Assembly: GCF_009938165.1 (NCBI RefSeq)
Contig: NZ_AP019650.1
Span: 372,001-436,000 of the forward strand
Source of the DNA: Vibrio taketomensis
Lineage (GTDB): Bacteria; Pseudomonadota; Gammaproteobacteria; Enterobacterales; Vibrionaceae
Direction of reading: 5' to 3'
Length of the DNA stretch: 64,000 bases
A program made the translations under genes and the position numbers. Shown in pieces: positions 3-23,921 of the stretch. Position 1 is the stretch's first letter; every line of letters begins with the position of its first letter. Under the pieces are notes generated by a model. That model saw only the letters and a list, made by a program, of their open reading frames with translations, did not search any database and was not told the origin of the DNA.

Positions 3-1790
3 GACGTACCACTGATTACAGGTGCGCAAGGGTTAAGTGTTGATGAAGATGACCTGCCTAATGGTAGTGATGGCAATCACTCGCTGGTGGATGATGGTCG
101 TTTTACCACCACAGAAGGCGCAGATGGCGTTATTCTCTATCAATTGGATTTAACCACCAATCCAGTAGCTGGGTTAACGTCGGGAGGTGTGGCTGTCACG
201 CTTGATCCGGTCGTGATTGATTCAGCCAGCAACCAACATACTTATACGGCCAAAGCGGGTGGTGTTGAAGTATTTGTGTTGACACTAAATGCTGACGGCA
301 CCTATCAGTTTGAACTTAAAGCGCCAATTGATCATGCTCCAAGCGAAGAAAGTAAAACCATCGATTTTACCGTTCAAGCAAAAGATGAAGACGGGGATCT
401 GTCGAGCCAAATTCTGCCAGTGACGATTGTTGATGATGCGCCAACGTTAGATAGCATCACGCCACCAAATGATGTGGATGAAGACGATATTCCAACGGTG
501 GGGTCCGATACCACACCCGAAGCAAATTCTACCAATGGTAGTTTTGAATACACGGAAGGTGCTGATGGCATCAAATCCGTCATTGTTGCTAACCAAGCCG
601 ACGTACTGGCATCGTTAACGTCAGGTGGTGAAGCGCTAAAATGGACAGATGATACGCCAGCTCAGGTTGGTACGACGTTCACTTATACAGCAGAGACCGC
701 TTTAGGCGTTCCTGTCTTTACCTTGGTTTTTGATTCTCAGGCAAAAACCTACGAATTCACGTTACTGAAAGCGCTAGACCATCCTGATGGTGCGGGTGAG
801 AACAGCTTACAAATTGGTTTCCAAATTAGTGTTGTCGATTTTGATGATGATCCGAGTAATCAATTGCCACTCAACATCACCATCATAGATGACATCCCGC
901 TGATCAACTCAGTGCAAAATCTAAGCGTTAGCGAAGATGATTTAAGTACGGGGTCAACGCCTGATAGTGACGCCGTAACGGATGGTGGACAGTTTGGCGT
1001 CATTCAAGGTGCGGATTCCATTGTTAAATACACCTTAGATTCAACCACTACACCAGTCTCAGGGTTACAGTCTGGAGGCGTTGATGTTGTGATTGGCGAT
1101 CCAGTGATTAACACTACCACAAATCAATACGTGTATACCGCAAAAGCTGGCAGCGTTGACGTGTTTGTACTGACCTTCAATGCTAATGGTAGTTACACTT
1201 TTGAACTCAAAGCGCCTATCGATCATGCCCAAGAGTCTGATTTAAGAACGTTGAGTTTTGGTGTGCTCGCTCATGACAATGATGGTGATACCAGCCTTGC
1301 GACACTGTTGGTGAATATCAATGATGATAAGCCTACGTTGACGGGCATTTCGGGTGATACCCAAGTTGATGAAGATGACCTTCCTGGTATTGGCTCAGAC
1401 GGTAATAAAGAACCAACAACGATTGGTGGTCAGTTTACTGTGGTTGAAGGGGCAGACACCATTGCAGAGTATCAAATTACCAATTTGGATACTTTGTTGG
1501 ATCAATTGTCTTCCGACAACCAAGGCTTAGTATGGTCACCAGTCGTGGTATCAGGTGATACGGTGACTTACACGGCGGTTACCGAGACCGATGGTGATAC
1601 GGTGTTCACCTTGGTGCTGAATAATGCAACCAACACATACAGCTTTAGTTTAGTGCAGCCTTTTGATCATCCGCCAGCGGATGGGGAAAACAATCAACCT
1701 ATTGATTTTGATATCAAAGCTGTTGACTTTGATGGTGATGAAACGGGCGAGGTGACGTTAACCATTGATGTAGTCGATGATATACCACGC
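3..1790 (+). repeat. four T1SS-143-like modules arranged as an A-B-A-B super-repeat
   Basis: Module openings (the first acidic residue or Ser of DEDD/SEDD) fall at nt 42, 477, 930 and 1368. Neighbouring spacings are 435, 453 and 438 bp. Modules 1 and 3 resemble each other ([20 protein letters not shown] type motifs) and modules 2 and 4 resemble each other (DHPxADGEN, VVDFDxD). The unit that was duplicated therefore appears to be the pair, with a period of 888-891 bp. Confidence 0.75.
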
Positions 1791-4700
1791 ATCATTAACC
1801 GCACGATCGAAGTCGTGGAAGGGGAAACGAGCAGTACTAACGTCAATATGTTTGGCCGTCCCGGTGCCGATGGCGCAGAAATTTCGCTCGTTGAAGCGGT
1901 TAGCACGGCTGACTCAACCATCCGCTTCCAATTAGCCGATGGTAGCTATGTTGAGAGCATTTCACCTAACGGTGCGATAACAACCGTTATGGTGGTAGAG
2001 GTTCGCACTGATGCATCCGGCAATACTACCTATGAGCAGCTCGGTGACTTAGTCATTAGACCGGATGATTCTCAGCGAGGACAATTCCGTTTTACGCCAG
2101 TGACTAACTTTGAGCATCAAGGCGGCGAACAGGTATTTACGCTTAATGTCACGGCGACCGATGGTGACCAAGATACGAGTGTGCGCACCTATAACGTAAC
2201 CATCTTGGATAAAGACGCGGAAATAACCGCATCGACAGTGAGTAGTTTTGAGGATTCTGGTCGTTCAGATTCTCTGAACTTTAATCCTTCAATTGTAAAC
2301 AGCAACGATCAAGATAATCAAAATTCGCTGCCAGTGACACCAAGTAAGGTAACGCTGAGCGTAGAATTGTTCGATTTAGACAACAACGAAGAAATTGGCT
2401 CGGTGACGATCGGCCCAGGTGGTTACAACGGACAGTTCTACTATTTTGACTCGGCTACCTCAACCTATATTGCTTTGACAGCTCAGCCTGATGGCAGTTT
2501 GCTACTTGATGCGGCAAACATAGAGCAGAGTTTGAGTGGATCCATTGCAACGATTGAGAATTTGTTCTTTGTGCCAGATCGTCAATACTCTTCTTCCGCG
2601 TCGGGTTTTGAAGTGCCAATTAGTGTCAATATTCTTAATAACAGCATGCCAGATCATGACGTTAGTGCTCAATTAACGATTGATGTGAAGGCAGTCGCTG
2701 ACATTGCCACGTGGAATCCAACCAACACTGAATCGCGCTACTCAATTATGGAAGATGGTGATAATGCGATTCTCAAGTTGCAGGCAGATACGCAAGATAG
2801 CAGTAATCCTGAAGAGATCACTTATCGCTTAGAAGTCACTGGCGGTGAGGGTAAGTTCGTATTAGAGACTGGCGCAGGACAAATTATTACGCCAACATCG
2901 GCGGGTGTTTATCTGATCCCTGCAGCAGACATCGCGGATGTGCAGGTCAATCCGATTGACCACTTCTCTGGCGCGATTACCTTTAACGTTTATGCGATTA
3001 CTGAGGAAACGGATAACCCGCTAGCAGGCAAAGAAACGGCAGAGTCAATGGCACAACCGTTGGTTATTAACGTTTCACCTGTCGCAGACCAAGGTACGTT
3101 TAGTGTCAATCGTATTACGATTTTCGAAGACAATGCTGCAACGCAAGACACTATTGATCCAGAGACTGATCACCTAGATTTCACCTTAAATAAAGTGGTG
3201 ACCTTGGGTTCGACGGATGATATCGATACGGTGGGTGATAACTCTGAAAGCCAGTTCGTTCAATTAACAAACTTTCAGTTAGAAAATGGCGATCCGCTGG
3301 TAGGTTATGAAGTGCGTTGGATTGGCGCCGGCGACAACCCGATTGTTCAGGTCTCTCCAGGCGTGTTCCAAGTGCCTGAATCTGCTCTGCCATTTGTCGA
3401 GATTCAGCCGCCGTTGCATAGCAATGAAAACTTCCGTTTTGACGTGCAAGGCTTCGTTAAAGACACCGCAACACTCATTGATACCGATGGTAATCCGCAA
3501 GAAGCCGTCGATATTAAACCGATGGCCGACCCGAAAACGGTGAATGTCACGGTTAAGGGCGTGGCGGATGTTCCGTTTTTGCCGGATGTACCACCGGAGC
3601 CGGGCACAGGCCCTGAGCTGAACACTTGGTATCAATACGACGATGGCTCAGGCCTGTTTGGCGCACAAGTTTATATCAATGAAAGTACCGAGATTGGTAT
3701 CAGTTTTGCTGTGCTTTCTGGTGAAGAAGAGGATGGCGTATTTGATAACTCAGAATCGCTGTCAGCTATCTTAAGTAATATTCCGGATGATGTAGAGTTA
3801 TTGGACGCCAATGGCGGTGCCATTGACTTGGTGTACGTGGGTGAAGGGCCAAATGGTCCACTTTATCAAGCGGCGATTACACAAGACGATTACGACGCAG
3901 GTATCACCATTCGCCCATCTAAATATCAAACGGATGACATCGTTATTGACGCCAAAGTGATCATCACCGAAAACGATGGTCATGTGCGCGAGGTTAATGG
4001 GGTACTGCGCGTTAACATCGAGCCAGTAATTGAAGCTGGTGGTGACGATGGCATGTATCAAGCATCTTCAAGAGGACGCGAAGATACGTTTATCTTTGTG
4101 CCTTGGAATGTCACTGACGACCCGAATTTACGCGGTACAGCGGATGCTCCAGATAGCCGCCCAACAACTAACGGACGTGACTACGAATTCGCGAGCAAAA
4201 TTGTGATCGAAGATTTTCCACCGGGTAGTGAAGTGGAAATCAATGGACAGCCGTGGGGTAATTATCCAAATGCTACCTTTGATGGCAGTACATTGACGAT
4301 TACGGGGCTGGACCAAAGCTCAACCTCGCCAAGTATTACCGTTAAGCCGCCAGAAGACTCGAGCGTGAACTTTGTGCTCAAGAGTACGATTACCGTGCGT
4401 GAAATTGACGAAGACGATCCGAGTATTGTCGTGGAAAAAGAGGTCAAAGGCGACTTGACCATCGTGGTGAACCCTGTGGTGGAACAAGATGGTACGCTTA
4501 CCATCGAAGATAAAAATGGCAATGCAGTCACCACGATTCGTGACGATGAAAACCCAGATGATGGTAAGATACGCTTCACCATTAATCAGCCAGATGGCGA
4601 TGCGAATGTGGTCGTGTTTGAAGATCTTGACCCTAGTTCTGTTGAACGAGTCGATCAGGTTGTAGTGCGTTTTGTCGTGCCGCCGGGCGAAGATTTCCAA

Positions 4701-7700
4701 GATGTAATGGATCAACTTTATGTCTTTGGCGGTATCAATAATGGTGACGGTTCATGGACGATTGTTGATGAAGATAGCTTCACGATTTCAGCGCCTGATG
4801 GCCTCAAATACAGTACAGGTGCGACGGAAAACACCATTGGGGTTGAATTTGTCACTCAAGTAGTCGATGAAGGCGATGAAAATGAGGGTAGTGCACCAAG
4901 AGAGGTGACAACCACCGTCGATTTAGTCTTCCCGTCTGATGTTACTCCAGCGCCAAGTGTGGCTGCGGATATTGAAGGCATGACGTTAACTCAAGATCCT
5001 GCGGCGATCGTGATCGGCACTGAAGACAACGCATTTGATGTAAGTTCGCAACTGAGCAAAATCTTCAAAGTGACGTCAGGCTCTGCTGATGGTGTCGCTG
5101 ATCAGGTGACGGTCGTTATTTCAGTTGCGGATATTCCACCAGAAGTCGCAGGGCTTGAAATTCGTGGTGCGCAATTTGATTTTGCTAATAATCTGTATGT
5201 GTTCTCGGCAAGTGTTGATGCATCAGGTGCACTCACATTCCCTGCAGGATTGCAATTTGTTACCCCAACTGACTACGCCGGTGACTTTATTATTCCAATG
5301 ACTATCGTCACGACAGATACTCAATCGGGCGATGAAAACTCAGTACGTTTTAATGTGCCTGTAGCCGTTAGTCCATTAGTGGATGTGCCCGTTGCTCAAG
5401 GCGGTTCGGCGCAACCTGAAGACAACGACGTGACGCCATCTTTGGGTGTAACGGCGACATCGGTAGAAAAAGACACGGGCACGGAAGTATCTAGCGAAGC
5501 GCTTGAAGATAACATCATCAAGCTGGTTGTGGATGTGGGCTTGGCCGATCAGCGAGATGCCGACACACAAGGTAAAGAGGTACTGACCAAAGTTGAGATT
5601 GAGCTAGTTGATTCAACGCTTGGTGAGTGGGTTGGATTAGATGGCGTGCCTTTGGTTCTAGCGGAGCCTGGCAAGCTGGTGATTGAGTCGAATGACCCAA
5701 GTGTAATTGAAGCGGCGTTGCAACAGATCTATTTCTTACCGAAAGAGAACTACCCGACCGGTAACGATCAAAATACGATTGATTTGCGTATTACGACGAC
5801 GATTTCTGACACCACAGATTTTGATCAAACCTCAACCACTGAAACGCCGAATCAACAAGCAGGTATCACTTACACCAACACGGCGTCATTTGATATCACG
5901 CCTGTGCTTGACCCTATCAATTTGCCTGATAGTCCAAGTATCGAAGTGGTTGGCAATGAAGACAGTGAGATTAGCTTATCAACCGCAAGTGGTGGTTTGA
6001 TGGTGTCACTGATCGATAACGACGGTTCTGAAGTCTTCTTGTCTGTCAAATTAACGGGTTTGCCAAAAGACTTTATCGTTGACAGCAATTCAACTGACTT
6101 TGTAGTGAAAAATAATGGCGGCGGTGAATGGACGATCCAATTGGCTAATCCAAATGTGACCAGTATTGATCTGAGTGCCATTACCATTACTCCTGCAGCG
6201 AATTTCAGTGGTAAAGCCGACATCGGTATTGAAGTGTTCACCCAAGAAAAGCTGCTGGGTGTGCCTCAAGTTCACCAAGGTCAATTTATGATTGACGTGA
6301 CTCCAGTGGGCGACGTGGTCGATGTTGACCCTGTTGCGGCGGTATCGGGTAACGAAGGCGAAAATATCGACATAGCTATCAATGCCAGTGTGACGGATAG
6401 AAATGACTTGCTGCCAGGTGAAGCCGATCAAGATCAACCAGAGACATTACTTATCACGGTTGAGAATGTGCCAGATGGCGGTTCGATCTATTTCCCTGAT
6501 GGCACAACATTGGCGACTGATCTCGGTGGTGGTGTTTGGCAGCTTGAAGCGAATGCACAGGATCTGGATAAAATCGTCTTTAACTCTGGTGAGCAAAACC
6601 AAGGTACGTGGGCGCCAGATGCTCTGACGATCAAAGTGCAATCGGTAGACACCAAATATAACGGTGACAAATTCTTAGGTCCGATTAATCAATTTGATGT
6701 GGATGTTACCGTTGAAGCCGTTAACGATAGACCCTACTTCGACGGCATTGCGAACTTGCAAACCCAAGAAGATACAACCGTTGAAGTAAAAGGGTTCACC
6801 ATCGAGGATATCGATGCGCAACTGGATAATCCAAACGCGAACTATACCTTAACGCTTAATGTAGATAGCGGCACTCTGTCAGAAAAAGCAGGCATTGCGA
6901 GTGCAAACAATGTGACAGTGAGCTTTACAGGTGCCGATACCATCGAGCTACAAGGTACGGTCGCCAATATCAATGCGGCTCTAGCGCAAGGTTTGGTGCT
7001 GTTTACCCCTGCGTTAAACAGCAATGATTTACTTGACCCTGATGGTGTAAAAGTCGTCGCGACGGTAAACGACAACGGCAATTTAGGGATTGTTGATGCT
7101 AATCCAGAGACGTCAAATGAAAACCAAGCCGAATTCGTTATTAACGTTTCAGAGCTCAACGATGCACCAAATGCGGCGGATGTGAACCTTGGTTCGATTA
7201 ACGAAGACAGCTCGATTCAAATTACAACCGCCCAGCTAATTGGACCGGGGCTAAGTACTGATCCCGATCCTGAAGGGCAAACATTGATTGTTAAATCAAT
7301 CACCGTTCCGCCGGAGCAGGGCACCATAGTTGCCAACCCAGATGGAACATCATGGACGTTTACCCCAGCACCTAACTTTAACGGTGATGTCGATATCACA
7401 TACGTGATTGAAGATAACGGCACGGACAATGGTGTCGACAACTTCCTGACTGATGCGGGTACGATTTCATTGACTGTCGTCGGGGTGAATGATGCGCCGG
7501 AAGTGGACGTGACTCTGGCTACTCCAAGTATTGATGAAGCCGCGGCTCAGCAACTGTCAGGCATTACAGTGAGTGACGTCGACTATGTTGATGCCTACGC
7601 GAATGATTTGATTAGCGTTGAGTTGTCAGTGACGTATGGTTCACTAAGCGTCGTCTTACCAACGGGTAGCAATATTACAGTGACGCCTCCAACCGGCGGC

Positions 7701-8813
7701 ACGATAACTCTCTTGGGGCCGATTGCTGAAATTAATGCACTGCTCGATACGCCAAATAGTGGTGAAGGAGTCATGCTAGATGCGAGCTTTGCGACTGCGG
7801 CAAGCGTCAACCTGACGGTAACCGCGACGGATTCTGGTAATCCATCGGGTATGCCGTTAACAACCAGTAAGGTTCATAGCATCACTGTTAACCCAGTGGC
7901 TGATGCGCCAACGTTAACGATTCAGCCGGGTTTTGATTATGTACGCAATATTTCTGCTAACCTATCGGCCAGTAATAGTGGTATTGCCATTGTTGGTATT
8001 ATTGCAGCGTTAACGGATGTGAATGAGGTACTGACGTTAGAGCTTTCACAAGTTCCTGCGGGCGCACAAGTTACCACATCATCAGGTGAGATATCACCAA
8101 GTGGTGGTGTGTATACTGTTCCTGCTGATGAAATCGCGAGCCTTGAGATATCGGGCGCTCCAGTGGGTAACCACACAATCGAGGTTATCGCTGTGTCGAC
8201 CGATGATGGAGAGACTGCGCAATCGACTCCGCTGAGCATACAACTCGATGTATTTGCAGATGGTGATAGCATCGATCAATCCGCAGCAACCGACGATGTG
8301 CAATTGCTTGGTGATGATACGGGTGTGGCACTCACTTCTGGTAGTGGTGATGACCGTATCGAAGGTGGCGATGGCAATGACACCCTTGTAGGTGGTGAAG
8401 GTAACGACACCATATTGGGTGGTGGCGGTGATGACATTATCGAAGGTGGCTTAGGCTCAGATATTCTAACCGGTGGCACGGGAATGGATGTGTTTGTGTG
8501 GCGAGAAATTGATGATGGTGCAGTGGATACCATTATCGATTTTACCGTTCAGGAAGACAAAATTGACCTTCGTGATGTGTTGCCAGAGCTTAAATCACCA
8601 AGTGTCGACATCAATGAATTGCTCGATCATATTCAAGTCGATGTGCAAAATGACGATGTTACGTTGAGCATTCATCCTGCGGGAGTCGGTGCGGGCGAGG
8701 AGCAGACGATTGTGGTTGAAAACCTCGCTCAAAGCTTAACGCTGGATGTGACGGACCAGTCGCAGATGTTGACGACATTGTTGGATGAAAATGTATTCCA
8801 ACACGATCCATAA
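3..8813 (+). CDS. giant RTX / type I-secreted adhesin, 5' end outside the window
   Basis: The frame is open from the first complete codon at position 3, so the true start lies upstream; any in-window start codon is internal. About 2930 residues are visible. The first 1.8 kb holds four modules of about 145-150 residues, each opening with a DEDD or SEDD motif, of the T1SS-143 type. After that come further Ig/cadherin-like beta domains with recurring NEDS- or EDN-type acidic linkers. Near the C-terminus (nt about 8336-8481) are glycine-aspartate RTX nonapeptides such as [16 protein letters not shown], which bind calcium after export, then a C-terminal region typical of type I secretion signals. 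Known relatives are surface or secreted adhesins exported by an ABC/HlyD/TolC system; no such exporter gene lies in this window. The protein is very acidic, Asp/Thr-rich and lacks cysteine-rich parts, as expected. Sure of the class, not of the ligand. Confidence 0.93.
8336..8481 (+). repeat. RTX nonapeptide repeats of the adhesin
   Basis: Tandem GGxGxDxxx units (for example [36 protein letters not shown]) precede the C-terminal secretion region. In this family the repeats bind Ca2+ and drive folding outside the cell. Confidence 0.85.
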
Positions 8814-8834
8814 ACGTTAGTCATAACAAAAATC

Positions 8835-8860
8835 AAAAGCACCGCTTGCGGTGCTTTTTT
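8835..8860 (+). terminator. Rho-independent terminator of the adhesin gene
   Basis: AAAAGCACCGC, loop TT, then GCGGTGCTTTT followed by more T. It lies 22 bp after the adhesin stop codon. Confidence 0.9.
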
Positions 8861-8927
8861 GATCGTCCAAACGGAATCTAGACTCACCTTGCGTATAATC
8901 ATGCTCATAAAATCAGAAGGATAATCA

Positions 8928-9584
8928 ATGATCAAAAGAAAGGCAGGTAGACCAAATAGCAAGACTGACGCGCGGGCACTATTGCTCATAGCAGCACGAG
9001 AGCTGTTCACCGTGATGGTGTATGACAAAGTGTCGATTCGCTTAATTGCGGGTAAAGCAGGCGTGGATAGCGCATTAATTCGCTACTATTTTGGCAACAA
9101 AGAGGGCTTGTTTGAGACAATGCTACGCGAGACATTGTCGCCATTAAATGATCGTTTGAATAAATTGCAGCAGAATATTACTCAAGACAATCTGATTGAT
9201 GTTATGCGCACTTATTATCGTGAAATGAGCAAACTTCCTCAATTTCCGCGCTTGATTTTACAAGTGATGAACATGCCGGAATCGAAAGTACAGCGACGAT
9301 TGCTGGAAAAGGTGATTGATGACATATCGAAACCGATTCAAACTGCGATGTTCGATAAATTATTAGAAAATGGAGTACTACGTGCCGATCTCGATCCTCG
9401 TTTGTGCCGAGTCTCGTTTATCTCATTGATGGTATTCCCTTTTGTTGCACCTCCTTCGATGTTGGCAATTCATGGCGTTCAACTAAGTGAGGAGTTTCTT
9501 GCGCAGTTGTTTGAACATAACCTCAATTTAATGACTCACGGTATGTTCAATGCAGGATCACAAGCGGTGGCAAACGAGAACTGA
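8928..9584 (+). CDS. TetR/AcrR-family transcriptional regulator
   Basis: This is a 218-residue protein with an N-terminal helix-turn-helix (about residues 10-57). The motif LIRYYFGNKEGLFETML is the classic TetR recognition-helix end. The rest is an all-helical ligand and dimer domain. An AAGGA ribosome site lies just before the ATG. It follows the adhesin terminator and so has its own promoter. It converges with the small gene at 9592-9945, leaving only 7 bp between stops. No adjacent efflux or enzyme gene reveals the target. The ligand is unknown; the family assignment is firm. Confidence 0.9.
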   Translation: MIKRKAGRPNSKTDARALLLIAARELFTVMVYDKVSIRLIAGKAGVDSALIRYYFGNKEGLFETMLRETLSPLNDRLNKLQQNITQDNLIDVMRTYYREMSKLPQFPRLILQVMNMPESKVQRRLLEKVIDDISKPIQTAMFDKLLENGVLRADLDPRLCRVSFISLMVFPFVAPPSMLAIHGVQLSEEFLAQLFEHNLNLMTHGMFNAGSQAVANEN

Positions 9585-11966: not shown

Positions 11967-12057
11967 GGAGAGATGGCTGAGTGGTTGAAAGCACCGGTCT
12001 TGAAAACCGGCATACGTTAATAGCGTATCTAGGGTTCAAATCCCTATCTCTCCGCCA
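11967..12057 (+). tRNA. tRNA-Ser (anticodon UGA)
   Basis: The acceptor stem GGAGAGA pairs with TCTCTCC. The anticodon loop is CTTGAAA with anticodon TGA, and there is a long variable arm typical of serine tRNA. The T-arm is GGGTTCAAATCCC, and CCA is encoded at the 3' end. Total 91 nt. The last part is the attachment site of the island. Confidence 0.96.
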
Positions 12058-12058
12058 C
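12028..12058 (+). repeat. attL: 3' end of tRNA-Ser, left direct repeat of the island
   Basis: The 31-nt segment from TCTAGGGTTCAAAT to CTCTCCGCCAC recurs at 20064-20093 with one C missing. It sits at the tRNA 3' end with an integrase gene 88 bp downstream, the standard arrangement for tRNA-targeted islands. Confidence 0.9.
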
Positions 12059-12145: not shown

Positions 12146-13504
12146 ATGTACCTACAAAAAGCGTCCAACGGCGTATATCAAACCCGCATTTGCGTCCCCA
12201 AGCCATTAAGACAATTTGGTTATCCATTCGATATCAAAGTTAGCCTTCGTACCAAAGAACGCCCAGAAGCAATTGCACGCAACTTCATAGTCGCTAACTA
12301 CCTTCGTTCAGCCATAACGAGATTAGATACCTCGTGTCCACCCCAATTTGAACTATTCAAAACGGCACTTGATCAAAATATCGAGAGCATCCGCCATTCG
12401 TTTGTTGCAGGCTCAGCAGGATATGTACATCCACAATATAAAGCGGTAGAGCTGACTGCTGAAAATTCTATAGATCACAGCTCTCGCTCGCACCCGTCTA
12501 CGATTGAATCAGGGAGAAATCAGGCTCCTGAACGCAGAAAGACTTCTACTCGCAGCAAAGGTACTTCTTTTGGTGATTCTCTTGCCTTGTTCATTAAGAG
12601 CAAGAGGACGCAAGGGATTACTGAACTCTCGATATATCAACTGGAACATGGCATTAAACATTGTACGAACTTTCTTGAGCATAAAGGATTAGGGCAAAAC
12701 ACGGTAACGAGTGCAGATATACTTGATTATGTAGACCATTTGATCGGTCAAAAGCGCTCGGCAAAAACCAACCAAGGGTATTTTGCATCGGTTAAACAAT
12801 ACTTCGCTTGGCTAAAAGCAAAAGGGATCAAATCAGAGAATCCCGCTGAAGGTATCAACCCTAAGTTTAAGAACAAGCAACACGCATCCGAACAGAGAGA
12901 ACGCTGGACAGAAACAGAGTTGCTCAAGCTGTTTCAAAGCCCCGAATATGCAGCACAAACAGAAGACTTCAAGTGGGTCACTAAGCTGCAACTTTTCCAT
13001 GGATTTCGCATTGGCGAGGTGTGCCAAATATACGTTAAGGACATCGTATGGTTGATGCATATTCCTTGCATTAAAGTGACCGATATATCGAAAGATCAGC
13101 ACTTAAAGAATCAACATGCGGTTCGAGCCATCCCCTTGCATCCGCAGCTGCGCAATAGCTTTTTACAGTTTTACGAATCACGCAAAACCCGAAAACGCTC
13201 ACCATTATTCCATTATAAGCCACTGGGGAAAGATAAAGACTGGACTAAAACGTATCGCCAGCAGTTTGGAAAGTTACAAACCAAAATAGGAATGCGTGCG
13301 GGAGCACGCCCAACCGCTTACAGCTTACGCCATACCTTTATTGATGAGTTAAAAATCAAAGATATTCCAGAACACAGTGTTGCCGAAGTCGTTGGGCACA
13401 CTAATAACAACATGACCTATGGACGTTATGGAAAAAAACACCGCATAGACAAATTGCTTGAGATTGTTGCAGCGTTCGAAATTAACCTAGAGGGAGCTTT
13501 ATGA
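12146..13504 (+). CDS. tyrosine site-specific integrase of the island
   Basis: This 452-residue tyrosine recombinase catalyses attP x attB integration and excision. The catalytic domain begins near residue 240. Arg288 lies in HGFRIGE, Arg395 in YSLRHTF (Tyr replaces the first His of HxxR, as in many phage-type enzymes), and the C-terminal motif VGHTNNNMTYGRYGK has the His and the nucleophilic Tyr. The N-terminal part (MYLQKASNGVYQTRI...) is a short DNA-binding extension, and a SAM-like core-binding domain lies at about residues 145-240. Its position 88 bp from the tRNA-Ser attL fits. The next gene overlaps its stop by 4 nt, so the two are probably co-translated. Confidence 0.95.
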   Translation: MYLQKASNGVYQTRICVPKPLRQFGYPFDIKVSLRTKERPEAIARNFIVANYLRSAITRLDTSCPPQFELFKTALDQNIESIRHSFVAGSAGYVHPQYKAVELTAENSIDHSSRSHPSTIESGRNQAPERRKTSTRSKGTSFGDSLALFIKSKRTQGITELSIYQLEHGIKHCTNFLEHKGLGQNTVTSADILDYVDHLIGQKRSAKTNQGYFASVKQYFAWLKAKGIKSENPAEGINPKFKNKQHASEQRERWTETELLKLFQSPEYAAQTEDFKWVTKLQLFHGFRIGEVCQIYVKDIVWLMHIPCIKVTDISKDQHLKNQHAVRAIPLHPQLRNSFLQFYESRKTRKRSPLFHYKPLGKDKDWTKTYRQQFGKLQTKIGMRAGARPTAYSLRHTFIDELKIKDIPEHSVAEVVGHTNNNMTYGRYGKKHRIDKLLEIVAAFEINLEGAL

Positions 13505-16224: not shown

Positions 16225-17288
16225 ATGAGTAACATGTTTAACCTGCTACGTTTGAAGCTGGCTAGAGAGAGGCGAGGACTGTCAAAAAGCACTCGCTGAA
16301 TTAGTGCAGCTTTCTCCTAAAACAGTATCAGCATATGAAAGTGAGAACCTCCATTTGACTTACAGGATGAAACCGTCAGTCGATTTGCAATGGCTTTAGG
16401 GTACCCTGTTAAATTCTTCTATAAAGATCGAGTGGAACTAATAGACGCAGATACAATTAGCTTTCGAGCTGTTACAAAACTACCTAGCAAATTGAGACTA
16501 GCTTCTGAGTCAGCTAGTATTCTTGCATATGAAATCTCTTGTTGGTTGGACAGGAAGTTCAACAATCTTCCTAAAGTAGACTTGCCTGATTTTACTCATG
16601 ACAACAGACATGAGCCAGAAGCTGCGTCTAAAGAGCTTCAGGTAAATTGGGGCATTGGAGAACTGTCCGTTAAAAACATGGTTCATTTACTTGAGTCTAA
16701 GGGAATTAGAGTTTTTCTCTATCGGAAGACTGTAAAGAGGTAGATGCATTTTCCATCTGGAAAGGGAATACGCCGTTTATTGTACTTAACCAATTTAAAA
16801 CCCCAGAAAGAAGCAGATTTGATGCAGCCCATGAGCTAGCTCATCTGGTGTTGCATAGACATGGGAGCAGAATAAAGGGAGAGGCCGAGCTGGAAGCAGA
16901 TAAGTTTGCATCAGCATTTCTTATGCCTAAAGGAAGTATTGCTAGCAAAGTGAGGCCAAATGCTAACGCAACATTAGATGACTTGATCAAATTAAAGAAA
17001 TTCTGGAATGTTTCCTTAATGGCGATGATTCGTCGTTTATATGACTTGAACTATCTTACCGAGTGGCAATATCGACAGCTAACAATTAGTGCTTCAAAGA
17101 GAGGTTATAGAACTTCAGAACCTGATGGTTTACAAACTAGAGAACAATCGTTGCTATTAGGTAAAATATTTACGGCCCTTAAATCTAAGGGAATATCTCG
17201 CACTGATATTGCTAATGAGCTAGCCCTACCATTTGATGAGGTTGCTATGGAGCTAATATTGTTTTGGAATGAACCTCAAAGCAATTAG
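16225..17288 (+). pseudogene. XRE helix-turn-helix / ImmA-IrrE metallopeptidase regulator, frameshifted
   Basis: Joining three frames gives a single protein of about 350 residues. It has an XRE helix-turn-helix (ALAELVQLSPKTVSAYE), a linker (RFAMALGYPVKFFY), then an ImmA/IrrE zinc protease domain with the motif FDAAHELAHLVLHRHG, the HExxH active site, and EADKFASAFLMP. Frame changes lie near 16282 (in an A run), between about 16340 and 16360, and near 16713, where five T stand where six restore the frame (giving RVFSLSEDC). Family members cleave or sense a partner repressor and control mobile elements. As sequenced it cannot make the full protein; sequencing error is possible. Confidence 0.8.
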
Positions 17289-17300
17289 CTTCACAGCAAC

Positions 17301-17758
17301 TTAATTCAAGTTTATTTGTATTCCCAACGTTCTAGATAGTCTTCTATAAAAGGCTGAATGGCCGACTATCAATATATTATCCGATCTATGTTGATACTTT
17401 AGCAGAAATTTATTTACCCTAGAATCAAGTTGTTCAAGACTTTCTACACCTATACCAAACTCAAGCTTTCTTCTATTTTCTTCGGATTTAACTTTACCTT
17501 CAAATACACCAAAGTCACGTTCGATCAATAATGGTTCACTGATTATTTCTTCAAAACTAAAATTATCTATAAAGTATTGAGCCGTTTGCACAGCCCTTTT
17601 AAAGGACTGTGCAGCAGAGTTAGAGGATTGTGTTCACTTGTCAGAGAAAAAGCCTCAGCAAGTTTTTATCATCAATACCTAGGAATGTCTCGTCGTCCTG
17701 CGAACCTATTTTTTATACTGAATTTCGTTCTACCATGCCGAACATAGATACACTGCAT
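17301..17758 (-). pseudogene. histidine phosphatase (phosphoglycerate mutase-like), frameshifted
   Basis: The start MQCIYVRHGRTKF at 17758 carries the RHG catalytic motif. In other frames follow HSPLK, then AVQTAQYF, ERDFGVFEGK, and finally ILIVGHSAFYRRLSR with the second catalytic His. At least two frame changes separate these (about 17680 and 17600). The predicted intact length is about 150 residues, slightly short for the family. Such enzymes hydrolyse phosphomonoesters through a phosphohistidine. The ATG lies 1 nt after the TGA of the nucleotidyltransferase gene, so the two form one operon. Confidence 0.75.
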
Positions 17759-17759
17759 A

Positions 17760-18683
17760 TCAAAATACTAACGCTGCATGAATTGGGTGGCTTTGAGGAA
17801 ACTCATTTAAGAAGCATTTTTCTAGCTCCCAGTTAAAGTGCTGAGATAAATTCTTAAGCCTTCGATAATCTTCAATATCATGCCTTGTTTCTCTAGAAAT
17901 TTTATCTAAAGACTCTCGAACGTTTTCATCTGAAATTTCGTTGAGAAACATTGAATAATGAGCCAGCATTTTTCCGATTGATTCTGACCGATTATTCTTA
18001 CTATTCTATCAATAGGAGTGAGCGCCAAGTACTCGAGTGTTCGTTCTATTTTCTCCTTTCTACTTAAACTACATGTAGAAGCAACAGCTATCAAACCAGA
18101 AAAATATAATAACTTCCGTGAAAACCTTAGTTTTATTTTACGGACACCCTAGCTTTTCCCGTCTTCATTCACTTTATACTCATAGTCTGTACAGATCGTT
18201 CTGTAATATCTTATAATGTCATTTAGCATGAACCGATTTAGATTATGATCTGATACGCTTTCTTTAATATATTTTTCTAAGATTTCGCGTTTAAGTGATT
18301 CATAAAGAGAGTCATTATACAAACACTTGCTCTCTAATAAATATAACATTCGTCTAGTAAATGCTTGGTTAGTCTCTTTGTCGCCACCGTAGTTTTCCAG
18401 CATATCATTTCTTGTTACGATAGATTCAAATGTACCTGTACTTCCAGCATTTTTGCAACGCGATTATTAACCACCTCAGTTACTTTATCTAAGTATGCTT
18501 GCTTCTCATCATCTTTAAATACTTTGTCTGCAAAATAAACCAGTCCATATCAGATTCTGGGACGCTTCATTTCTCCCAAATGAACCAGTAACGACAACAC
18601 ATAATTCGTCACCTAATTCTGCGTTATCTAACTCTTTTTATGGCGCCAACTAACTCTTCAGAGTAATTTCTTCTTTGTTCCAT
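17760..18683 (-). pseudogene. nucleotidyltransferase (DUF294/GlnD-like), frameshifted
   Basis: Reconstruction across frames gives MEQRRNYSEELVGAIKRV, then the polymerase-beta-type motif GSFGRNEAS-PESDMDW (G-S and D-x-D for Mg2+ and NTP). A helical part follows, including MLENYGGDKETN and IRYYRTICTDYEYKV, and the end is SQHFNWELEKCFLNEFPQ. Disruptions: frame changes near 18629, 18573, 18440 and 17975 (five A where six restore frame), and one in-frame TAG at 18149-18151 replacing the expected Trp in GKS-W-GVRKIKL. Intact length would be about 305 residues. Relatives transfer nucleotides to proteins or RNA; the substrate here is unknown. Confidence 0.75.
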
Positions 18684-18708
18684 TAATGTAAAACCTATCT
18701 ATAATAAA

Positions 18709-19825
18709 TCATATTGTTTTTATTGGGATCAATACAAAGTGTGTAATATATTGTTTTTTTGTACTCCACTTACTACACTCATATCTTTTAGAAATGAATT
18801 CATCCAGATTTTTTATGTTATTTGTATCGATAGATTTATTTACTTTATAGCATCTTTCTATAACGTCTAAATTTATCTCATTTATGCTTTCAAGGTCGTG
18901 TGTGCTATCAAAGTCAAAGGACAATTGCTTTAGCTTTCTTACCTTATTTGAGAAATGTTTAAATATGGGCTTTTTCCCACCGAGAAGTGATGATTCCTTC
19001 TAAAAATAAGACTCGTCTATTCTACTAACATTATCAAAAAGTACTCTCTAGATATATGATCTGCAATTGCTCCAACTCCACTTGTAATTACTTTTTATAT
19101 ACAAAATCTTTAGCTTTCCAGAAAGAGTCTAGTTTTTCTACTTGGACATCACCTTCATCTATAAATGACGCTCTTGCCAAAGAATACTTATCATACTTCA
19201 AGTTAGCATTAACAAACGATAAGCTTTTTGAATTCCATCAATAGTATCAATGTTAATTTTCGAGTTAAATATGTCTGAAAATTCTTCTTCAGAGTTTTGT
19301 TCAACTAAGTCAATGACAGTATCAATGCTGACTTGGTCTTCGAGAATTTTTGAGAGAAAATTCTTTTCTTTAATAACTCGATTACCCGCCACATGGTGAT
19401 TAATACCGAATTCATCAAAAATGAAGGCTCCATGCTATGGGACAATGGGCATGCCCAATATCATGAAGAAGTGCAGCTACTACAAGGTGATCCTGTACTT
19501 CTTCATCATAGTTACGTTGTTTCGATATAAATAGCGCCAACTTGGCTACATCAAGAGAGTGGATATACCTATTACTCTTAGTTTCTGGCGATAAGTAATC
19601 GATAGCCCTAGAAAAGAAACTTGCTTAAGGCGTTGAAACTCATCAGAATTGATAATTTTGAATAAAACGAATTCGACAGCAACATGTTGCCCATGTTTCT
19701 ATCGATATCACTTTCTTCATAAAATCAAAAACAACCAAGTTACTTTCATGTCTAGCCATATTAGGTATCTTCTGTAATTCTCTCGCAAGCAAGGGAGAGA
19801 TGATTTTACATACAACATAGTTCAT
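18709..19825 (-). pseudogene. HD-domain phosphohydrolase (dNTPase-like), frameshifted
   Basis: Joined frames give EFVLFKIINSDEFQRLKQ, then RYIHSLDVAKLALF, and VVAALLHDIGHAHCP. These are the H...HD metal motifs of the HD superfamily in the arrangement of dGTPase/SAMHD1-like enzymes. Next come EFGINHHVAGNRVI and a long helical C-terminus (about 19390-18709) ending FVLIPIKTI. Frame changes occur near 19685, 19605, 19435, 19060-19110 and 18985-19020, so no long frame survives. Intact length would be about 370 residues. It is the first gene of a three-gene minus-strand cassette with the nucleotidyltransferase and histidine phosphatase. Confidence 0.75.
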
Positions 19826-20063: not shown

Positions 20064-20093
20064 TCTAGGGTTCAAATCCTATCTCTCCGCCAC
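20064..20093 (+). repeat. attR: right direct repeat of the island (tRNA-Ser 3' fragment)
   Basis: Matches 12028-12058 except for one missing C in the CCC of the T-arm. Only the last third of a tRNA is present, so this is not a second tRNA gene. It marks the right end of an island of about 8.0 kb. Confidence 0.9.
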
Positions 20094-22455: not shown

Positions 22456-23921
22456 ATGCCGATTCATTTTCATCAACTGATTGCAAAGGAAAATAGCTCA
22501 ACGCTTCGTATCGATGACTGGTACATTGAAACAGGACAACCTTGGGGCATTTTTAGCTCAGAGGGGATATTGGCTCGATGCTTGGTGATTTGCTGTGCGG
22601 TGAAATTAAACCTGAGTCTGGCGAGCTAACAATAGAAAATCACCATATTGCCCAAGTCTCCCTATCTGAACAGCAGCGATTGCTAGAGCAGGAGATTGAA
22701 AAAGACGATACCGATTTTCTTGATCGTATTGATCATGGTAGTTCAGTGTATGAGTTAGTTTTTGAAATGAGTCAAGATGAAGGTTTGACACAAAATCTGA
22801 TAAGAGAACTCGATCTTTCTCATTTAGTAGAAACAGGATTTCGAGTACTTTCAACCGGAGAAACAAGGCGCGTAATGCTGGCACGGGCGCTTGCCGCAAA
22901 GCCTGATGTCGTGTTACTCGATAATCCATTTACAGGATTAGATGTAGAGCACCGAGCAGCATTAGCTTGTTATCTTCAAACGCTGTCTCAATCGGTACAG
23001 ATGTTGATTACCTTTTCGCGCGAATCCGATATGCCGGATTGGGTAGAGCAGATTGCTCTGTTTAATGGTGGTCAGCTCGACAGTACCATGGATAAACAAA
23101 ACTGGGATCAGCACCCAATCATCGCCCAGATCAAAGCTCAGTCGACGAAGCAAAGTGAAGAAATGATGGGCTTGGTTCGTCAGCATCAACACTCAACGCA
23201 GTTCGACAATCCAATCTTTGAGTTGAAAAACGGTAAAGTGGAATACATAGAGAAAACTATTTTTACGAATTTGAATTGGCGTATCGATAACGGTCAACAC
23301 TGGCAAGTTAAGGGGCCAAACGGCTGTGGTAAGAGTACCTTATTAGGGCTGATATTTGGTGACCACCCACAATGCTACAGTAACGATATCCAAATTTTTG
23401 GCAAAAAACGCGGCAGTGGCGAAACGATATGGGAAATTAAGCAACATATCGGCATGGTCTCGTCAGCTTTGCATCTTCAATATCGTGTAAATTGTCGCGC
23501 TTGATGTGATTTTGTCGGGCTTTATGACTCCATTGGTCTTTATTCTCAACCGAGCAAGAAGCAAATTCAAATTGCCAAAGAATGGTTAACGATTCTGCAT
23601 ATGAGGCAGTATGAAGCAACTTCGTTTAAACAATTGGAATATGGTCAGCAGCGCTTACTATTGATTGCCAGAGCGATTGTGAAACAGCCGACATTGTTGA
23701 TTTTGGATGAACCTTATCAAGGCTTGGATTATCTTGGGCGAATGCTGGTAAAAAATACCCTAGAGCTGATTGCCAAAGAAAATCTAAGCCAACTTCTCTA
23801 CGTTTCACACTATCAAGAAGATGACTTGGACAGCATTCAAAATTATCTTGAGTTCCAATTTGATCAAGAAGCGCAGTGCTACAAAGGGATAGTGACAAAA
23901 TCGGCTAGCTATAAGGCTTAA
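22456..23921 (+). pseudogene. modF: ModF-like double ABC ATPase, frameshifted as sequenced
   Basis: Corrected for indels this is about 488 residues, the usual ModF length, with two ABC domains. Domain 2 is standard: WQVKGPNGCGKSTLLGLI, RGSGETIWEIKQHIG, LEYGQQRLLLIARAI and LLILDEPYQGLD. Domain 1 keeps the signature LSTGETRRVMLARAL but has EGDIGSML at the Walker A site and LLDNPF at Walker B. Frame changes lie near 22562 (four G where five restore frame), near 23500, and near 23522 (three T where four restore frame). ModF proteins are associated with molybdenum metabolism in E. coli. It converges with lysW across a long palindrome. Confidence 0.8.

Follow-up and report, generated by a model that had tools for sequence, protein, structure and literature searches.

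The antitoxin MntA nucleotidylates HepT, and in Hailong the nucleotidyltransferase HalB keeps an effector off. A further system, Clover, consists of the dGTPase CloA and the nucleotidyltransferase CloB, whose product p3diT acts as an inhibitor; in those passages of the Clover paper drawn on here, phosphatases figure as the phage Dmp and as reagents, with no phosphatase gene, and Hailong is named as well (PMC12265719). Here we analyzed a gene cassette of Vibrio taketomensis that encodes an HD hydrolase (HD), a Pol-beta nucleotidyltransferase (NT) and a histidine phosphatase (HP). It lies on the minus strand, at 17301-19825, of a 64,000-nt stretch of contig NZ_AP019650.1 (positions 372,001 to 436,000), which we refer to as the window.

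The cassette in the window and across genomes

Reading of open frames at 17301-19825 gave only short ones, and all three genes are frame-disrupted. The HD motif AALLHDIGHAHC, the NT motifs GSFGRNEAS and PESDMDW, and the HP motifs VRHGRT and VGHSAFYR all occur there in changing frames. Among 196 genomes of the genus, a DNA search with this segment gave matches in 2: the window's own genome and G185, a congener in which all three genes are intact (locus L004; HD 376 aa, NT 315 aa, HP 168 aa). Two bases separate HD from NT in G185, NT and HP overlap by 4 bases, and the three proteins exceed the Pfam cut-offs for PF01966, PF01909 (NTP_transf_2) and PF00300 (His_Phos_1), respectively. By tblastn, the window covers 213/376 residues of the G185 HD, 282/315 of NT (one of them contributed by a chance match at 17225-17266, E 0.089) and 146/168 of HP. 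When six pieces from all three window genes were scanned singly, a 110-residue C-terminal piece of HP matched Pfam (Table 1) and none of the HD or NT pieces did so above cut-off; the identity of HD and NT in the window therefore rests on tblastn with their intact G185 relatives. These results bear out the earlier note, which had read three hidden genes with tight junctions on one strand.

The window and G185 share 64% residue identity over 637 codons, and their substitutions at codon positions 1, 2 and 3 (199, 134 and 356) have the pattern of selected coding DNA. Frame changes were counted from the tblastn segments against G185; the ends at the HD/NT junction are accurate to some tens of bases, and HP possibly extends, in another frame, to about 17275. 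The breaks probably reflect errors in the sequence rather than decay, because a second database sequence of the window's NT (P0060; its contig has 1,343,375 bases, that of the window 1,341,331) is without several of them; it agrees with the window outside the breaks, but it ends early too. We regard it as unlikely that the window's copy is a dead remnant with real breaks, a reading that would concern this copy alone and would be compatible with any function of the family. At least 13 frame changes fall within 2.5 kb, whereas long frames are open over most of the window, and an adjoining IrrE-type gene looks split too; against decay, apart from P0060, stand the right end repeat of the surrounding island, likewise one base short in a run of C, and a codon-position pattern that fits a maintained gene.

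The family was surveyed with an alignment (A1) of 21 NT proteins and with two NT-only peptide patterns, without selection for HD. Among 84,980 species genomes, this NT search recovered 29 loci. HD was directly upstream on the same strand in 26 of these, fused to NT in one (L028) and convergent in one (L030), while in L013 the contig starts too close to NT for HD to be judged; that is, HD lay beside NT in 28 of the 28 loci with enough sequence. HP followed NT in 11 of the 29 loci (L006, L009-L014, L021, L026, L029, L031). Its absence was judged by phmmer with one query and by reading the next frames, and three of the 18 HP-less loci (L018, L024, L032) have fewer than 600 bases after NT, too short to judge. 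On the NT tree, HP showed 7 changes compared with a shuffled mean of 11.2-11.3, suggesting that it is clustered, yet was gained or lost several times. Since HP is present in only 11 of the 29 loci, we consider it optional and HD-NT the core of the cassette. The full set proposed earlier does recur outside the window, and the ground on which the earlier note would have given up its reading, homologs that never occur together, does not hold.

Homologs of HD and NT also keep company within the window's family, where NT was found in 3 of 329 genomes and HD in those same 3. The third of these (G210) carries HD-NT with no HP next to NT; at HP's place, a DUF5131 gene adjoins in the opposite orientation to HD-NT (L041:28-894). 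The cassette family is rare: among 369 genomes of a class-wide sample, NT was found in 2 (the window's genome and G468, a distant match without the expected motif by pattern) and HD in 5. The four HD matches from other genomes have QLG and DRLDYL, their loci of 3.0-3.5 kb contain no NT motif, and they were rejected as members of the cassette family. Hosts include Pseudomonadota, Campylobacterota and one Desulfobacteraceae metagenome-assembled genome, and HD and NT are naturally fused in 23 proteins of 646-694 aa.

Several carriers are mobile. HD-NT, without HP, is the main cargo of a Rop-type E. coli plasmid of 4,499 bases (L005, NZ_CP092257.1), in which the HD frame spans the record start and is unannotated; a search of plasmids and E. 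coli genomes with the window DNA returned one 4.5-kb E. coli plasmid, covering 6% of the query. A viral contig (L035; IMGVR_UViG_3300035491_000331, 6-9419) has HD-NT-HP behind structural genes and encodes Rep_trans, a Zot family protein and a cytosine methylase, which marks it as a filamentous phage or prophage. The contig's NT shares 85% identity with a protein named as V. cholerae (P0024). This was the single filamentous-phage carrier in the viral contig search, which hit it three times and gave three more HD matches at 31-37% identity over about 80-120 residues; phage records searched with NT gave no match.

The HD, NT and HP proteins

HD is predicted to have a SAMHD1 fold. In an alignment (A4) of 87 hand-chosen HD sequences, the catalytic residues H119, D120, H128 and E131 were kept in all 87, whereas two residues with which dNTPases contact their substrate were replaced throughout. 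The Gln of QLG is F in 87/87, and the Tyr of DxxDY is G in 86 and A in 1, so that QLG and D[KR]xDY of the EF1143/SAMHD1 dNTP triphosphohydrolases appear as FLG and DTxDG in the cassette. The contact columns were placed by profile alignment to EF1143 and a fungal SAMHD1, and by motif order. Relative to those enzymes, an invariant LDxFWxxK...Y set is new, and FLG, DTxDG and LDxFWxxK form the family signature. The motif spacing was 32 in 96/96 HD proteins, with a second interval of 74-85; 25 of 121 proteins failed the strict pattern and were excluded from this count. The PADLOC model of a single-gene defense dGTPase (PDLC02374) had no full-length HD match, aligning over about 60-105 residues at E 1.5e-7 to 7.8e-10.

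The predicted structure of NT appears to resemble the protein adenylyltransferases GlnE and DrrA, at 8-12% identity, and the intact relative P0002 has no GlnE family match above cut-off. All four cassette NTs scanned matched PADLOC PDC-M70A (E 4e-55 to 6e-53). The B part of that system, PDC-M70B (238 positions), matched none of the HD and HP proteins scanned and was not found in the window's genome, a weak negative since no control genome gave a signal. The cassette therefore differs from PDC-M70 in pairing a match to its A part with HD and HP rather than with PDC-M70B. A Rhizobium plasmid encodes a distant NT with HP and without HD among glycosyltransferases (L037:4863-6558), and a Sinorhizobium plasmid a distant NT with PDC-M70B, beside an AbiEii gene (L038:4968-6655). 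In view of these arrangements, NT appears to be a hub whose partners can be exchanged. HP belongs to branch 1 of the histidine phosphatase superfamily (P0003, PF00300, E 3.1e-16), and its RH[GA] and HS motifs occur in 14/14 aligned HPs, among which the window is represented by a C-terminal piece. PADLOC has no dedicated model for the HD and HP proteins that were scanned, so that PADLOC surveys would miss the cassette or file its NT under another candidate system.

Clover and candidate functions

As far as Clover is described in the passages used, the cassette resembles it in several respects. In both, an HD phosphohydrolase adjoins a Pol-beta nucleotidyltransferase, the HD and HE catalytic residues are common and the spread is mobile and patchy. 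CloA's catalytic H117/D118 and H126/E129 correspond to the cassette residues kept in 87/87, and the Clover plan of a dNTPase-type HD beside a nucleotidyltransferase recurs in all 28 loci that could be judged. The PADLOC scans and the literature searched contained no named system with exactly HD-NT-HP, as the earlier note had supposed; its claim must nonetheless be tempered by Clover, one published system close in design (PMC12265719). That the cassette is Clover itself, with HD a dTTP-activated dGTPase and NT making inhibitory p3diT, is improbable in spite of the common two-gene plan. The CloA contacts Q53 and Y246 coincide with the F and G/A positions of the cassette HD, and CloA spaces H69-H117-D242 at 48 and 125 in place of 32 and 74-85. 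CloA is Dgt-like, while the cassette HD is SAMHD1/EF1143-like and, at 218-384 aa compared with 471-473 aa, about 100 residues shorter; for the dTTP site that CloA has in its C-terminal bundle (Y452 and others), the comparison was one of protein length. CloA chains (9p8s-v in the PDB copy, taken as the 8P9S-V printed in the paper) were found from a Dgt-type protein and, though in the PDB copy, not from the cassette HD profile at E 0.01, an absence from a fold match list that excludes no family. HP is an extra gene relative to Clover as described in those passages. CloB was not found beside dGTPases in 30 loci (of 161 genomes with matches), nor via plasmid dGTPases, whose neighbors were not examined. 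In the plasmid collection, Dgt-type dGTPase relatives, many annotated as anti-phage, occurred in 262 of 72,556 records (80 Klebsiella, 62 Escherichia). Because profile result, motif spacing and substrate contacts all differ, the cassette was not filed as Clover; that it works like Clover is our best guess, from a sequence comparison that covers CloA only.

The linkage of HD and NT, their natural fusions and their mobile carriers speak for a self-contained switch, with NT in control of HD. With confidence about evenly balanced, we favor a mobile nucleotide-based defense module, Clover-like with different parts, in which NT is a brake on HD and HP is optional. HD would be a metal-dependent phosphohydrolase effector, and NT its dedicated brake, either attaching a nucleotide to the HD protein or making a nucleotide ligand for HD to bind. 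The brake would hold HD off in healthy cells; infection would lift it, whereupon HD would destroy a nucleotide needed by the phage. Where present, HP may remove or trim the mark or product of NT and so reset the switch. A nucleotidyltransferase restraining an effector would also recall Hailong. If the module is Clover-like, such restraint also operates on another kind of HD enzyme as the nucleotide-destroying effector, and it may have evolved repeatedly.

A different arrangement, possible though clearly less probable to us than a braked effector, is a writer-eraser cycle in which HD has given up dNTP hydrolysis and removes the nucleotidyl mark or nucleotide messenger of NT, and HP performs a third step. 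Such a synthesis/hydrolysis pair would resemble those of SpoT or GlnD and be assembled from SAMHD1 and GlnE folds into an immune switch spread by phages, islands and plasmids. The family-wide replacement of the residues with which dNTPases contact base and phosphate is consistent with loss of dNTP hydrolysis, and an HD acting on NT's own product would represent new signaling chemistry. Somewhat less probable still is an addiction module that keeps an island or plasmid and has no anti-phage role, with HD as toxin and NT as a nucleotidylating antitoxin in the manner of MntA on HepT. The likeness consists of a Pol-beta fold domain and a possible brake through nucleotidylation. NT, however, is three times as large as MNT antitoxins and, at 16.7 bits, falls short of the MntA model's cut-off of 60, its partner is HD and not HEPN (no HEPN occurred in the Pfam matches of the three cassette proteins), and HP is left unexplained. 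A metabolic role in polysaccharides or nucleotide sugars, with the three enzymes modifying a glycan precursor or disposing of a by-product, appears doubtful to us, although it is kept alive by the settings of some loci. Neighbors in L006-L034 were named by eye unless a Pfam or PADLOC match is cited, and on that basis 6 of the 29 loci lie among polysaccharide genes (L007, L008, L009, L017, L019, L026). L007 has a sulfotransferase nearby, and in L026 (4774-11703) HD-NT-HP lies inside an apparent dTDP-sugar/polysaccharide operon, where 18 bases separate HD from the preceding thymidylyltransferase-type sugar nucleotidyltransferase gene (PF00483) and a further gene begins immediately behind HP. The NT-HP pair among glycosyltransferases on the Rhizobium plasmid points the same way. 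Against a metabolic role, most of the 29 loci are, by eye, without such genes, a phage and a tiny plasmid are among the carriers, and polysaccharide loci are in their own right sites of frequent gene exchange. With its HD signature, natural fusions and very small carriers, the cassette is ready for cloning and testing.

The tRNA-Ser island and neighboring genes

An island of about 8 kb, bounded by end repeats and equipped with an integrase, sits at a tRNA-Ser gene and has the cassette as its last cargo; the earlier note had likewise placed the cassette on a tRNA-borne island. Features are collected in Table 1. No Pfam family was found above cut-off in five other island frames scanned.

Table 1. 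Features of the cassette and its island (window positions).
Feature	Position	Strand	Remarks
HD hydrolase gene, SAMHD1-fold family (predicted)	18690..19825	-	at least 6 frame changes; low end approximate; relative P0001 intact, matches PF01966
Pol-beta NT gene	17760..18683	-	at least 5 frame changes; relative P0002 intact, matches PF01909 and PADLOC PDC-M70A
HP gene (branch 1)	17301..17767	-	at least 2 frame changes; C-terminal piece matches PF00300, E 2.7e-12
tRNA-Ser (tga), island insertion site	11967..12057	+	
Left end repeat, 31 bases, 3' end of tRNA gene	12028..12058	+	
Right end repeat, same sequence, one base shorter in run of C	20064..20093	+	
Tyrosine integrase, intact, downstream of tRNA	12146..13504	+	PF00589, E 2.8e-16
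IrrE-type peptidase fragment facing cassette	16848..17288	+	PF06114, E 8e-05, above cut-off

PADLOC matches of neighboring proteins, among those listed, included AbiE, SoFic, PD-Lambda-5, type I restriction-modification, DpdF and TnsB. The scan, at E 1e-15, matched 25 families in 110 proteins and 115 families (25 of them listed) in 85 proteins, 4 of the latter from the phage contig; proteins longer than 900 aa were excluded (191 of 198 kept). A control scan at the same threshold gave 11 families in 79 proteins, the 11 of 90 proteins excluded being, by position, the dGTPases themselves. One protein can match many PADLOC families, so that these counts do not measure enrichment, and no enrichment of defense genes is claimed because the control set gives matches too.

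Arylsulfatase-like genes lie downstream in L004 and L021 (33% identity over 157 residues) and were taken as context. In the window, the IrrE-type gene beside the cassette appears as two frames at 16390-17288. An early suspicion of broken frames at 56-60 kb was dropped, since the frames there look, by eye, like short separate genes. Overlapping ABC-type ATPase frames at 22456-23504 suggest a further frame change outside the island.
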